NCBI RefSeq assembly: GCF_019599505.1 | Contig: NZ_RKLT01000003.1 | Span: 310,001 to 374,000 of the forward strand | Direction: 5' to 3' | Length of the DNA: 64,000 bases | From: Haloarcula nitratireducens | GTDB taxonomy: Archaea; Halobacteriota; Halobacteria; Halobacteriales; Haloarculaceae | Shown: positions 104-20,498 of the stretch, piece after piece | How positions within the stretch are numbered: position 1 is the first letter of the stretch | How the letters are laid out: every line of letters starts with the position of its first letter | Notes under the pieces: model-generated | Told to the model about the DNA's origin: nothing | Database searches by the model: none | What the model saw: the letters and a program-made list of their open reading frames with translations, nothing else | Program-made: the position numbers and the translations under genes

Positions 104-442
104 TCAGCGGTCCGCAGAGAGCGTGCGCCACGCTTCGTCGAGTTTGTTGGTGACCTCGGAGCGTTCCTCTACGTGAACGGTCAGTTCGTCGTCGAAGTCG
201 ACGCGGACCTCGTCGACGTTCCGGCGGTACACCTTGATGCGTCGCCGGTCGTCCGAGAGGATGTTGTCGTGGAGTTCGAGCAGATCGTGTTCGGTCAACT
301 CGTCGATGCGTCGGTAACAAGTAGCGATGGGGATCCCGAGCTGATCGCTCAGTTCTTGAGCCGACGCCGGTTCGTCGGTCGCGTCGAGGATCTCGGCGCT
401 GTATTTGTTCCCCAGCGTCTGGAGAAGATCCGCTGAAGCCAT
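104..442 (-). CDS. Small winged-helix transcriptional regulator (ArsR-like)
   Basis: A 112-residue protein that is almost entirely one winged-helix domain. Residues 1-60 contain the helix-turn-helix core (ELSDQLGIPIATCYRRIDEL), followed by a basic wing (SDDRRRIKVYRR) and an acidic C-terminal helix. It probably binds DNA as a dimer. I chose the ATG at 442 over an in-frame start at 577 because an A/T-rich promoter with a perfect inverted repeat lies immediately upstream of 442, so the longer form would be translated promoter DNA. It is transcribed away from the KaiC-like and che genes; a role in regulating taxis genes is only a guess from position. Confidence 0.8.
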   Translation of the reverse strand: MASADLLQTLGNKYSAEILDATDEPASAQELSDQLGIPIATCYRRIDELTEHDLLELHDNILSDDRRRIKVYRRNVDEVRVDFDDELTVHVEERSEVTNKLDEAWRTLSADR

Positions 443-11085: not shown

Positions 11086-12009
11086 ATGTCCCTCCGGTTG
11101 CCGAGTGAAATCGTCGTGCAGGACGTGTTGCCGACGCTTCGGGTCCTGCTGGCGCGGGAGCTCTCGGCGCACGACCTCACCCAACAGGAGGTCGCGACAC
11201 ATCTCGGCGTGACGCAGGCGGCCGTCTCGACGTACGTCAACGGCGACCCCGACCTCGAACCGCGCATCGCGGACCACCCTCGGACCGCGGAGACGGTCGA
11301 ACAGGTCGCCGGGGGACTGGCCGACGGCGAGATGGACGGTTACGACGCGCTGGCGGCCGTGCTGGAACTCGTCCGCGCCTTCGAGGACCGCGGCCCCGTC
11401 TGTGAGCTCCACGAAGAGGCGATGCCGGAGTTACGGGGGCTGGGCTGTGACCTCTGCGTCCGCGGCGCGAACCCCGAACTCCGCAGGGAGCGCGAGGTCC
11501 TCGACAGCGTTCGAGAGGCGAGCCGAGTCCTCGCCACCACGCCCGGCGTCGTCGACTACGTCCCAAACGTCGGGACAAACGTCGGCACCGCGCTCCCCGG
11601 GGGCGAGGCCGTTTCGGACGTGGCCGCCGTCCCCGGCCGCATCTACGTGATGGACGGCAGCGTCGAGGTGCCCGCGAACCCCGAGTTCGGCGCGTCGAAA
11701 CACGTCGCCACGACGATTCTCGCCGCGACGGCCGTCGACCCCGACCGCCGCGGCGCGCTCAACCTCGCGACCGACGACGCGCTTCTCGACGCGGCCCGCG
11801 CACGCGGCCTCGACCTGCTGGAGTTCGAAGCGGGCTACGACGACCGCGGCGACCGCCTCCGCGAGCGGTTCGAATCGCGCGGCGCGGTCCCCGACGTGCT
11901 CTATCACCGCGGCGCGTTCGGCATCGAACCCATCACCTACGTCCTCGCCGGGACCGGCGCTGATGCGGCGCGGTTAGCCGCCGAATTAGTCGCTGACGCG
12001 GAAGAATAG
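11086..12009 (+). CDS. thiR: Thiamine-responsive regulator ThiR (HTH + ThiN domain)
   Basis: A 307-residue protein with an N-terminal helix-turn-helix (residues about 25-60: LTQQEVATHLGVTQAAVSTY), a cysteine-bearing linker (LGCDLCVRG near 115-125) and a C-terminal ThiN-like domain (about 145-305, VDYVPNVGTNVGTALPGG, NPEFGASKHVATTIL, HRGAFGIEPITYVL). ThiN in other archaea makes thiamine phosphate; in ThiR it serves as the sensor of thiamine phosphate attached to a DNA-binding head. Divergence from tenA fits control of this salvage operon and of itself. The ATG at 11086 has a TATA-like palindrome 28 bases upstream. A bifunctional enzyme role is not excluded. Confidence 0.88.
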   Translation: MSLRLPSEIVVQDVLPTLRVLLARELSAHDLTQQEVATHLGVTQAAVSTYVNGDPDLEPRIADHPRTAETVEQVAGGLADGEMDGYDALAAVLELVRAFEDRGPVCELHEEAMPELRGLGCDLCVRGANPELRREREVLDSVREASRVLATTPGVVDYVPNVGTNVGTALPGGEAVSDVAAVPGRIYVMDGSVEVPANPEFGASKHVATTILAATAVDPDRRGALNLATDDALLDAARARGLDLLEFEAGYDDRGDRLRERFESRGAVPDVLYHRGAFGIEPITYVLAGTGADAARLAAELVADAEE

Positions 12010-12037
12010 CGGTTGCTGGCGGTGCAGTCGGCCGGGA

Positions 12038-12420
12038 GCGCGCTCCGTCGCGCGAAGACGCCGTCAGAACGAAGTTCTGACGAGCCTTCGTTCGCTCCGC
12101 TCACGAAGACGGGGAAGGGCAGGCCTGCCTAAGAAACGTACCGCGCCGGAGGCGCGGTTTCACCGAACTCGCGGCAGAGCCGCGAGTTCGGCCTTTTTCG
12201 CCCACGTTCGTTAGAGCGAAGTCATCCGAAAGAGCGCACGGCGCTCTTTCGTGATCACGAGAGAGCTTCGCTCTCTCGGACGACTCTAACGCAGCCCATC
12301 AGAAGTCTTCGACTTCTGAGGACGTTTTTCGAGGAGCGGGTTGCGGGCCAACGGCCCGCAACCGAATGACGTGGCGGCTTCGCCGCCACGCTCCTCCCAC
12401 GGCGCGCTCTCCGAGCGCGC
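12038..12420. repeat. Array of perfect triloop hairpins between convergent genes
   Basis: Within about 380 bases lie at least nine perfect inverted repeats with stems of 7-12 bp and loops of exactly 3 bases: 12063-12081 (loop GAA), 12141-12157 (GGA), 12164-12190 (AGA, 12-bp stem), 12228-12250 (ACG), 12258-12278 (TTC), 12299-12319 (TTC), 12339-12363 (AAC), 12371-12389 (TTC) and 12402-12420 (TCC). Looser palindromes occur at 12038-12054, 12086-12108, 12118-12129 and 12251-12258. Every triloop is closed by a C-G pair (C-NNN-G). The stems are unrelated in sequence, so only the architecture is repeated. No protein is encoded here. Confidence 0.9.
12164..12197 (+). terminator. Hairpin plus T-run, likely thiR terminator
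   Basis: The longest hairpin of the array (12-bp stem, AGA loop, 12164-12190) is followed by a five-T run at 12193-12197. It lies about 155 bases after the thiR stop and is oriented for plus-strand transcripts. A similar T5 run follows the hairpin at 12299-12319. In archaea the T-run is the main termination signal; the contribution of the stem is less certain. Confidence 0.45.
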
Positions 12421-12450
12421 GAGGAAAGGCGACGACGAAAACGGTGGGCG

Positions 12451-13329
12451 CTAGGCGTTGACATCCTCCAGGTGCCGGCTGGCGACGATCTTCCCCTTCG
12501 GGGTGAGCGTCGGACCATCGGGGCCGTCCTGAACGAGGTTGTCCGCGTCGAGGTCTCGGAGGAGCATCGACACCGCGGCGGAGTCTTTCCCGAGGATGTT
12601 GGCGAGGGGCATCCCCTCCATGTCGCCGGTGGAGTACATGGCGACCAGCACCTCCTTCTTGTCCCGCGTGAGGTCGACGTTCCGAATCTCCTCCATCAGC
12701 TCTGAGTACTCCCGACGGAGGTAGCGGCCGAGGATAGACATCTTCCGGGGGGAGGCCAGCGTCGCCATCGTCGTCACGGCGGTGCCGTCCTGCATGTGCC
12801 TGACCTCCAGGACCGGGCGTTTGGTGCCCGATACCTCCCGAGTCGTTCGGGAGAAGTCGGAGACCGTTTCGAGGTCGATGGCGAAGGTGCCGTCCTCGCG
12901 GCGGAACTCGACGGTGCCGGGGGTCAAGAAGAGGCGGGCGGTCCGCTGGGCGTCGTCGGTAACGCGGCCGCCGACGCGGGCGCGCTCTTTGACCGTCGTC
13001 TCGGTGCCGTTGACGATCGCTTTGAACAGGAGCGTGCCGAACCTCTCGATCTTCTCGTCACCGGCCTCGATGGCGGCGACGAGGCGGCGGCCGTTCTTCT
13101 CGAAGGCGACGGTCACCGTCGAGTCGAAGAAGTCGCCTAAGTCGGGCGGCACCTGCCCGATGGCGACGTCGAAGATGGACGCCAGCGGAATCGTCAGCTT
13201 GTCGTCCTCGCTCGCGGCCAGTACCAGTCGCTTCTGTGAGAGGACCACCCGACCCTTGATGGGGTCGTTGCGGGTGGAGACCTCGGAGTTGAACTGGCCG
13301 ACGAAGTCGGCGATGACTGATTCCGACAT
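12451..13329 (-). CDS. cheF: Archaeal chemotaxis protein CheF (DUF439), second copy
   Basis: A 292-residue CheF paralogue. It shares with the operon copy the segments RVVLSQKRLVLAAS near residue 27, a central KRPVLEVRHMQDGT (the other copy has RPLLEVGHTIDGT) and a C-terminal winged-helix region (LTRDKKEVLVAMYSTGDMEG). Most haloarchaea that swim have two such genes. Here it is monocistronic, convergent with the first cheF and separated from it by the thiamine-salvage cassette and the hairpin array. The ATG at 13329 gives the conserved N-terminus SESVIADFVGQFN. Confidence 0.9.
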   Translation of the reverse strand: MSESVIADFVGQFNSEVSTRNDPIKGRVVLSQKRLVLAASEDDKLTIPLASIFDVAIGQVPPDLGDFFDSTVTVAFEKNGRRLVAAIEAGDEKIERFGTLLFKAIVNGTETTVKERARVGGRVTDDAQRTARLFLTPGTVEFRREDGTFAIDLETVSDFSRTTREVSGTKRPVLEVRHMQDGTAVTTMATLASPRKMSILGRYLRREYSELMEEIRNVDLTRDKKEVLVAMYSTGDMEGMPLANILGKDSAAVSMLLRDLDADNLVQDGPDGPTLTPKGKIVASRHLEDVNA

Positions 13330-20402: not shown

Positions 20403-20498
20403 CGAAAGTAGGAAAGATCGGAAAGAGGGGTGGGGGGTGGGGGGTGGTGGCACCCAAAGTGGGTGCGCTTAGAGATTCGGGAGTGATAATTAAGAATC
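20403..20498 (+). repeat. Polypurine tract, G-quadruplex motif and two hairpins
   Basis: A purine-rich stretch (20403-20430) runs into five G blocks separated by single T residues (20427-20450: G4, G6, G6, G2, G2), which can form a G-quadruplex. It is followed at once by a 7-bp hairpin GCACCCA-AAG-TGGGTGC (20450-20466) and an A/T-rich inverted pair AGATTC/GAATCT (about 20471-20498). The whole region 20231-20599 has no credible gene. It may be the 3' or 5' region of a non-coding RNA or the promoter of rimI. Confidence 0.6.

Follow-up and report, generated by a model that had tools for sequence, protein, structure and literature searches.

REPINs are small palindromes that are often paired, and the double-hairpin elements of mitochondrial DNA are mobile, organellar sequences with two hairpins. 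The accessible text of PMC3733652 describes GTAG REPs, which occur with RAYT proteins, as small and often paired palindromes with loops of 2–3 nt in many families, and CGTC-tagged REPs as small intergenic palindromes of five bacterial phyla, without a dedicated transposase, that have CGTC beside the stem, loops of 4–5 nt and stems beginning with A–T pairs, and that often form opposite dimers. SMR-A of Haloquadratum walsbyi is presented in the accessible part of PMC3119063 as a transposase-free element of ∼110 bp, commonly >95% identical within type, that has inverted terminal repeats, makes no target duplication, is mobilised in an unknown mode and targets the palindromes of PATEs and IS605-type transposons. 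As regards termination in H. volcanii, a T5C tract terminated 95% and one hairpin (S12) 59%, as given in part of PMC7237163.

Here, a hairpin array lying within a 64-kb stretch of Haloarcula nitratireducens DNA (64,000 nucleotides, referred to throughout as the window) was compared with these systems. The array is probably a composite of dispersed haloarchaeal palindromic repeats, comprising a terminator layer, designated family A, and inserted mobile hairpins of double-hairpin (DH) type. The best reading, which we regard as the likely one, is that non-autonomous mobile palindromes resembling REPs or SMRs, which would be recognised in their folded, single-stranded form, overlie a terminator-bearing 3′-end element. 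As far as the accessible descriptions go, the DH element is haloarchaeal like SMR-A but differs in its length of ∼62 nt, its two variable-stem hairpins, its mean column identity of 78% and its class-wide occurrence. In common with the CGTC REPs as described, it has CGTC beside the stem, with CGTT or another sequence in part of the copies. Set beside the dimers of that family, it is an inverted pair with its tags outward, and, unlike those REPs, it has triloops and stems that begin with C–G and G–C pairs. The GTAG tag of GTAG REPs and REPINs, as described, is missing from the DH consensus, and the mitochondrial double-hairpin elements are likened to it by nature only, on account of their two hairpins. 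The T5C tracts of family A, with T5 often 3–9 nt past a stop codon, resemble the haloarchaeal T-tract terminators covered in the accessible part of PMC7237163 but ride on a dispersed structured element. The string 'halo' does not occur in the accessible text of PMC3733652 or of the REP and hairpin surveys PMC12306157 and PMC13155455, and no description of these elements was found in the part of open-licence PubMed Central that was searched.

The hairpin array between thiR and cheF

A thiR-like gene (11086–12009, + strand; HTH and ThiN domains, with Pfam PF10120 above cut-off and HTH_3 at 22.3 bits against a cut-off of 23) and cheF (12451–13329, − strand; Pfam PF04283, CheF-arch) converge on a gap of 441 bases at 12010–12450. 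Between 12062 and 12420 there are nine perfect hairpins, every one with a loop of 3 bases and a C–G closing pair; the stems are, in order, 9, 8, 13, 11, 9, 9, 11, 9 and 8 bp, and the loops GAA, GGA, AGA, ACG, TTC, TTC, AAC, TTC and TCC. The initial annotation had listed these loops and closing pairs, and they were found as listed, but it gave the stems as 7–12 bp, where the actual range is 8–13 bp, and its figure of a dozen hairpins is reached only by counting imperfect or interrupted structures (12086–12108, and the stems 12209–12221/12284–12291 and 12331–12338/12389–12396).

The array opens with a triloop hairpin, CGTCAGAAC(GAA)GTTCTGACG, at 12062–12082, and an imperfect hairpin at 12086–12108, CTTCGT-TC-GC(TCC)GC-TC-ACGAAG, with tandem G·A mismatches on the − strand. 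Family A follows on the − strand, with its linker, CCTGCCCTTCCCC, at 12111–12130 and its core, an A tract with two triloop hairpins, at 12135–12211 (78.4 bits with model R2). The core hairpins are ACCGCGCC(GGA)GGCGCGGT at 12140–12158 and a 13-bp hairpin at 12163–12191, right after which, on the + strand, comes the sequence TTTTTC (12194–12199), the likely terminator of thiR. A two-hairpin block at 12209–12321 contains the left part of a host hairpin, CGTTAGAGC(GAA)G (12209–12221, + strand), the 62-nt DH element (12222–12283) between G12221 and C12284, the right arm of the host, CTCTAACG (12284–12291, + strand), and a triloop hairpin, TCAGAAGTC(TTC)GACTTCTGA (12299–12319). Beyond a second TTTTTC tract (12325–12330, + strand) lies a three-way junction (12331–12396), in which GAGGAGCG (12331–12338) pairs with CGCTCCTC (12389–12396) and encloses hairpins at 12339–12363 and 12370–12390, and of which dispersed relatives exist in the genomes of Haloarcula amylovorans (G001) and H. 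rara (G003). The last triloop hairpin, GCGCGCTC(TCC)GAGCGCGC, is at 12402–12420, and a T4 tract on the cheF (−) strand (12438–12441) is situated 9 nt past the cheF stop.

In 2000 dinucleotide shuffles of 12038–12420 (383 bases), triloop stems of at least 8 bp numbered 0.03 on average and 1 at most; none reached nine, and a chance origin of the array was rejected on this count. Loops of 4–10 bases gave no stem of at least 7 bp in the same 383 bases, and loops of 11 gave one. Across the whole window there are seven triloop stems of at least 9 bp, all of them in this array, and the array strand folds far better than its shuffles, with z −9.0 as DNA and −8.4 as RNA. At the gathering score, Rfam found only a tRNA in the window, and three G003 loci, two of them containing whole arrays, gave two sub-threshold matches (E 0.72 and 0.79); no described RNA family was matched to the array in these sequences. 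A virus origin was likewise rejected, since viral contigs contain no exact match to the DH pattern and a search of phage records with the array region gave nothing at E ≤ 0.01; matches were present in six haloarchaeal plasmids.

Searched on both strands at E ≤ 1, with up to 40 candidates scored per genome, the array region matched all six related genomes, giving at least 76 matches in G001, at least 93 in G003 and at least 33, 42, 32 and 29 in the other four, and the earlier assertion that the hairpins are not copies of a repeat is thereby contradicted. Most stems are indeed unrelated, as had been stated, with the exception of the two DH hairpins (12227–12251 and 12258–12278), which are alike. 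A count over 2.8 Mb of the G003 chromosome, with genes called by our own simple caller rather than taken from annotation, gave 269 perfect triloop stems of at least 9 bp against 40 in a third-order Markov control of one simulated sequence, and 61 tetraloops against 42. Perfect hairpins with 11-base loops and stems of at least 9 bp numbered 100 against 30 simulated and perhaps belong to another repeat family. Triloop stems of at least 8 bp total 480 (mean 0.17 per kb overall), and 321 of them are intergenic. The density per kb falls from 1.08 in convergent gaps through 0.72 in tandem to 0.43 in divergent ones, genes having 0.07. The biggest G003 arrays have up to 16 triloop stems of at least 7 bp in one gap. 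Some of them (860293–861113 and 2329973–2330772) are enclosed by the frames GCCAGAAAGCCCC..GGGGCTTTCTGGC and GCCCCTTTCAGTCCCACCC..GGGTGGGACTGAAAGGGGC.

Family A and the orthologous gap in relatives

Thirteen loci were found in relatives via cheF, and in five of these thiR still follows cheF, namely L001 (Haloarcula amylovorans), L002, L009 (H. rara), L010 and L012. Their gaps are shorter than that of the window (177–263 as against 441 bases), and in each the number of triloop hairpins of at least 7 bp is between one and three. They are not random sequence, the outcome that would have counted against a selected structure: the family A model matches all five, T tracts lie near the cheF stop (T5 in each, at the position of the T4 tract in the window), and the unpaired strings AAAAAC.TGGG.GAAAAA and CCTGCCCTTCCCC are common to them with variation, the latter being the same string in L001, L009, L012 and G003 copies and varied in L002 and L010. 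The L012 hairpin position-homologous to 12062–12082, CGACAGAG..CTCTGTCG, has arms that differ from those in the window yet are complementary, as expected of compensating changes. The window gap looks like the L001 gap plus added hairpin blocks. Indeed, the block at 12209–12321 is missing from L001, where ACGTT occurs once, and is bracketed in the window by ACGTT at 12204–12208 and 12322–12326; since the DH element lies within this block, which is itself added relative to L001, two layers are indicated. A similar block is found at G003 1185932–1186230. The ACGTT direct repeats may have arisen by chance, or they may be a 5-bp duplication of the target left by a different type of two-hairpin element.

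The cores on which the family A model was built, fifteen in number and all from G003, have the layout AAAAAC..AAAAA, hairpin, TGAA, hairpin, ATGCT; the model matches 122 of 194 class genomes at E ≤ 0.001. Of 40 sites found by pattern, 16 were kept. In G003, 23 places out of 24 matches were considered; 22 of the places face a gene 3′ end and 13 are in convergent gaps, which make up 169 of the 1207 gaps of at least 100 bp. Among the 18 copies with an upstream 3′ end, 13 have a T5 that begins 3–9 nt past the stop codon, a count that omits the copy at 689924 because its near T5 belongs to a neighbouring copy. The arrangement expected of a terminator, a T tract behind a hairpin where a gene ends, is seen both at 12163–12199 and in family A of G003. 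Given this placement, the T tracts and the T5C data from H. volcanii, family A is most simply taken as a dispersed, terminator-bearing 3′-end element, with a presumptive function as terminator for thiR and perhaps for cheF; it would constitute the ground layer between the convergent genes, with T-tract terminators beside hairpins, into which further hairpin elements, the 62-nt DH element among them, would have entered. The earlier proposal of a structured transcript end at thiR and cheF holds to the extent that the T5C tracts after thiR fit a structured 3′ end.

An alignment of 40 family A cores, made to follow the structure, has 707 pair cells, of which 670 are Watson–Crick, 8 are G·T, 4 are A·C and 25 are other; 95.9% of cells are paired, and there are 149 two-sided changes where shuffles have 48, in agreement with the claim that shape is what the hairpins share. 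These observations bear on the possibility that the palindromes are held by selection on RNA, as bidirectional terminators or 3′-UTR stabilisers of convergent genes. The orientation of family A towards gene 3′ ends and its T5 tracts, the 13-bp hairpin at 12163 with TTTTTC behind it, the termination by hairpin S12 in H. volcanii (in the accessible part of PMC7237163), the RNA folding score and the peak of triloop density in convergent gaps all speak for it, and palindromes that work on both strands would forbid G–U pairs. We nonetheless consider it rather unlikely as an account of the whole, because the DH element is common in divergent gaps and occurs also in genes, and because of the preferences in loop and base pairing set out in the last section.

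The double-hairpin element and its insertion sites

The window copy of the DH element scores 75.5 bits with model R1 at 12221–12284. Its hairpins, CGAAAGAGCGC(ACG)GCGCTCTTTCG at 12227–12251 and CGAGAGAGC(TTC)GCTCTCTCG at 12258–12278, are separated by the spacer TGATCA (12252–12257; alignment A1), and on the + strand it reads TCATC-hairpin-TGATCA-hairpin-GACGA, the general form being TCGTY-hairpin-TGATCA-hairpin-RACGA. Alignment A1, which comprises the window copy and 19 G003 copies, has conserved outer ends and spacer, free triloops and the consensus GTCGTCC..GAACGAC, and depicts an inverted hairpin pair that in most copies is flanked at both ends by CGTC or CGTT. Within the hairpin arms 94% of cells are paired and 27 show two-sided change, compared with 9.6 in shuffles; the count of pair types is not above shuffles. 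Two features of the outer stem weigh against the preferred reading of mobile, folded repeats: it shows no two-sided change, and in 9 of 19 rows its innermost pair is not intact.

With up to 37 candidates scored per genome, the DH covariance model matched at least 138 of 145 class genomes at E ≤ 0.01, the other seven, without a match at that threshold, being a further point against the preferred reading. In a draw of 120 genomes from the phylum, 19 matched at E ≤ 0.001, and all 19 are also in the class draw; the remaining 101, which presumably lie outside the class, gave no match at this threshold, with filters that lose weak matches. A strict pattern applied to 391 genomes found 9 copies in 6 genomes. 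The 42 DH sites tabulated in G003 were hand-chosen from 102 strand-wise matches, weaker sites being omitted; 18 are in tandem gaps, 17 in divergent gaps, 5 in convergent gaps and 2 in called genes, a distribution mostly over tandem and divergent gaps that argues against the DH element itself being a terminator.

Empty sites were sought for 28 copies (27 of the 42 G003 sites and the window copy) by joining the flanks at every boundary from −4 to +5 and searching with the product. In 16 of the 28, no other junction matched better than the one retaining a single G and a single C; some top matches are uninformative because they are the filled site itself or another filled copy. For the window copy, the joined flanks form, on the − strand, the hairpin CGTTAGAGC(TTC)GCTCTAACG, and uninterrupted relatives of this host exist at L001:6341 (92% over 62) and L018:1531 (92% over 60); the initial annotation had overlooked that one element of the array sits inside another hairpin and has empty sites in relatives. 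The G003 copy at 1706900 interrupts a tnpB-like 3′ end, and for one G003 copy an unbroken version of the interrupted sequence exists both in L162 (93% over 44) and in the tnpB 3′ end of the IS605 resident in G003. Judging from these joins, the DH element is inserted at G^C. It makes no target duplication and in this is like SMR-A as described in the accessible part of PMC3119063, which it also resembles in entering palindromes (9 of 55 copies) and IS605-type sequence (a tnpB-like 3′ end and an ORF with a TNB domain). The ORF in question is a called one in G003, with a TnpB-like TNB domain, and has a DH copy near its end (L076:5071–5132; G003 1085071).

In a set of 55 copies, which omits L172, L198, L199, L200 and L202 (unmatched by the search expression), L174 (short flank) and L087 (copy end set by hand), joined flanks gave a perfect hairpin of 8–9 bp in nine, as against 2.9% of random joins with at least 7 bp. 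The supposition that most DH copies lie in perfect hairpins accordingly fails, and this fraction counts against the preferred reading. Three of the nine are in G003, three in G143, and one each in the window, L197 and the plasmid of DL31. Five of the hosts have triloops, those of G143 have loops of 2 nt and that of L197 a loop of 5 nt. The L197 host is cut where its loop begins or ends, whereas in the other eight a single base pair separates the G^C cut from the loop. Of 45 distinct DH sites, 28 have GCNNNGC across the cut, compared with 18% of intergenic G^C steps; the sites are not all independent, because many copies lie in one repeated host frame (CTCGCTG^CGCTCC), and this shared frame too detracts from the case for mobility. 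As far as sequence comparison goes, the DH element is shown to be dispersed, cleanly seated at G^C and partly in the tips of other hairpins, and since part of the copies occupy such tips, arrays would grow as hairpins inside hairpins. The empty sites are mostly paralogous and no insertion was seen at strain level, both of which likewise tell against mobility.

Two DH copies are situated in coding sequence in such a way that the frame is of note. That at L136:3775–3842 (G003 2283775) is in frame in a histidine kinase gene, where its 66 nt amount to 22 open codons and adjoin what we take to be the N-box, between the HisKA and HATPase matches. That at L208:1506–1573, on plasmid phalar01 of DL31, lies in a hairpin tip inside an annotated PglZ-domain gene, and the insert is again of 66 nt, a multiple of three.

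Proposed folded form, upkeep of the arms and mobilisation

Among G003 triloops with stems of at least 8 bp, a C–G closing pair is found in 299 of 321 intergenic cases (93%) and in 71 of 159 coding ones, and GNA or TNC loops make up 164 of 321 (51%) and 22 of 159, respectively, against a background of 11–13%. GNA loops with two G–C pairs form ultrastable mini-hairpin DNA, as described in the accessible part of PMC4686876, and loops that are of 3 nt and GNA represent a DNA preference, contrary to what selection on RNA would lead one to expect. Such selection alone should also favour G–U pairs, of which there is no excess: triloop stems with one mismatch number 4 with G·T and 8 with A·C on the transcribed strand of tandem gaps, small numbers that include chance hairpins, and 9 and 14, respectively, in all gaps. 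The stems differ by two-sided Watson–Crick changes with G–U nearly absent, a pattern that fits DNA folding or correction between arms; stems with a single mismatch do occur, and these speak against the preferred reading. The earlier call for a process that maintains palindromes or a factor that reads hairpins is supported in this respect, the near absence of G–U arguing for a process at the DNA level.

The loops behave differently from the arms. Four G003 copies are alike at every non-loop base and have the loops GGA/GGA, GTA/GCA, AGA/AGA and GGA/GTC, and two equal-armed copies in G143 have GAA/TTC and TTC/GAA; against this, one of the loops is invariably GAA among the ten G147 copies read, and two G003 copies have both loops in common. 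DH loops drift or are rewritten, and the data fit either; neutral loops beside constrained arms would also produce loop variation with identical arms, which weakens the case for the preferred reading. The GAA/TTC inversion is suggestive only, because a preference for GNA on either strand yields the same pairs. Reverse-complement loops between equal-armed copies, perfect arms and two-sided changes that lack intermediates are nevertheless what would be seen if fold-back synthesis or template switching created triloop palindromes anew, with no mobility involved. As the sole cause this is very improbable, being largely refuted by the non-palindromic sequence common to copies: dispersed DH copies have the spacer and outer sequence in common and clean empty sites, and there is no match in the 101 phylum genomes beyond the class draw.

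With regard to the enzyme, a Y1 HUH transposase of the TnpA_REP/RAYT type that reads short-tagged hairpins could move these elements in the manner of REPINs. The DH element, as an inverted hairpin pair with CGTC or CGTT outward in most copies, has a suitable architecture, tnpB-like sequences are among its targets, and all six genomes searched have Y1 TnpA genes. These number one to four per genome and ten in total, which is few, and among eight neighbourhoods (up to 3.4 kb) four have no triloop hairpin of at least 8 bp, one has one, and the other three have two, three and seven, above the G003 mean. The search suggested in the initial annotation, for TnpA_REP-like proteins, found Y1 TnpA genes in each of the six genomes, with triloop hairpins near four of the eight inspected and none near the other four. 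The G003 gene is part of an ordinary tnpA–tnpB pair, ∼0.5 kb from a family-A-like copy, and proximity could mean only that IS605 is a target. Y1 mobilisation of DH elements is thus possible on sequence grounds, but a REPIN-like system of this kind is regarded as doubtful; that no mobilising enzyme was identified counts also against mobile repeats in general.

Returning to the preferred reading, the DH element would be recognised as folded single-stranded DNA, with shape (a perfect stem, a C-NNN-G tip and a G^C step) counting for more than the sequence of the stem; it would be mobilised in trans. Template-switch (quasi-palindrome) correction and selection for copies able to fold may jointly keep its arms perfect, leaving the loops free. 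A bolder version, which we advance tentatively and hold to be somewhat short of probable, is that of a mobile system, spread across the class, in which the unit is a shape of DNA: double hairpins whose C(GNA)G tips are ultrastable would be copied in the form of folded single strands and would insert beside the last base pair in the tips of other hairpins, building nested, tree-like cruciform arrays in which the arms are rewritten in concert while the loops are hypervariable. If true, this would represent a widespread and apparently undescribed class of palindromic mobile element for archaea, with a hairpin tip rather than a sequence as target, and could explain why the 3′ ends of some haloarchaeal genes are dense in hairpins. 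Since stems change in concert, loops drift and there are tens of copies per genome, the question of whether palindromes are upheld by selection, template switching or transposition becomes directly testable.

Two minor observations were made alongside. In G010, DH copies start at base 5 of contig C3 and base 4 of contig C15, and from this position at contig starts such repeats may break assemblies. Elsewhere in the window (20450–20466), a conserved hairpin, GCACCCA(AAG)TGGGTGC, lies beside a G-rich run; L001 has it too, and the 2.8 Mb of G003 contain one copy (1816500), with a similarly G-rich neighbour.
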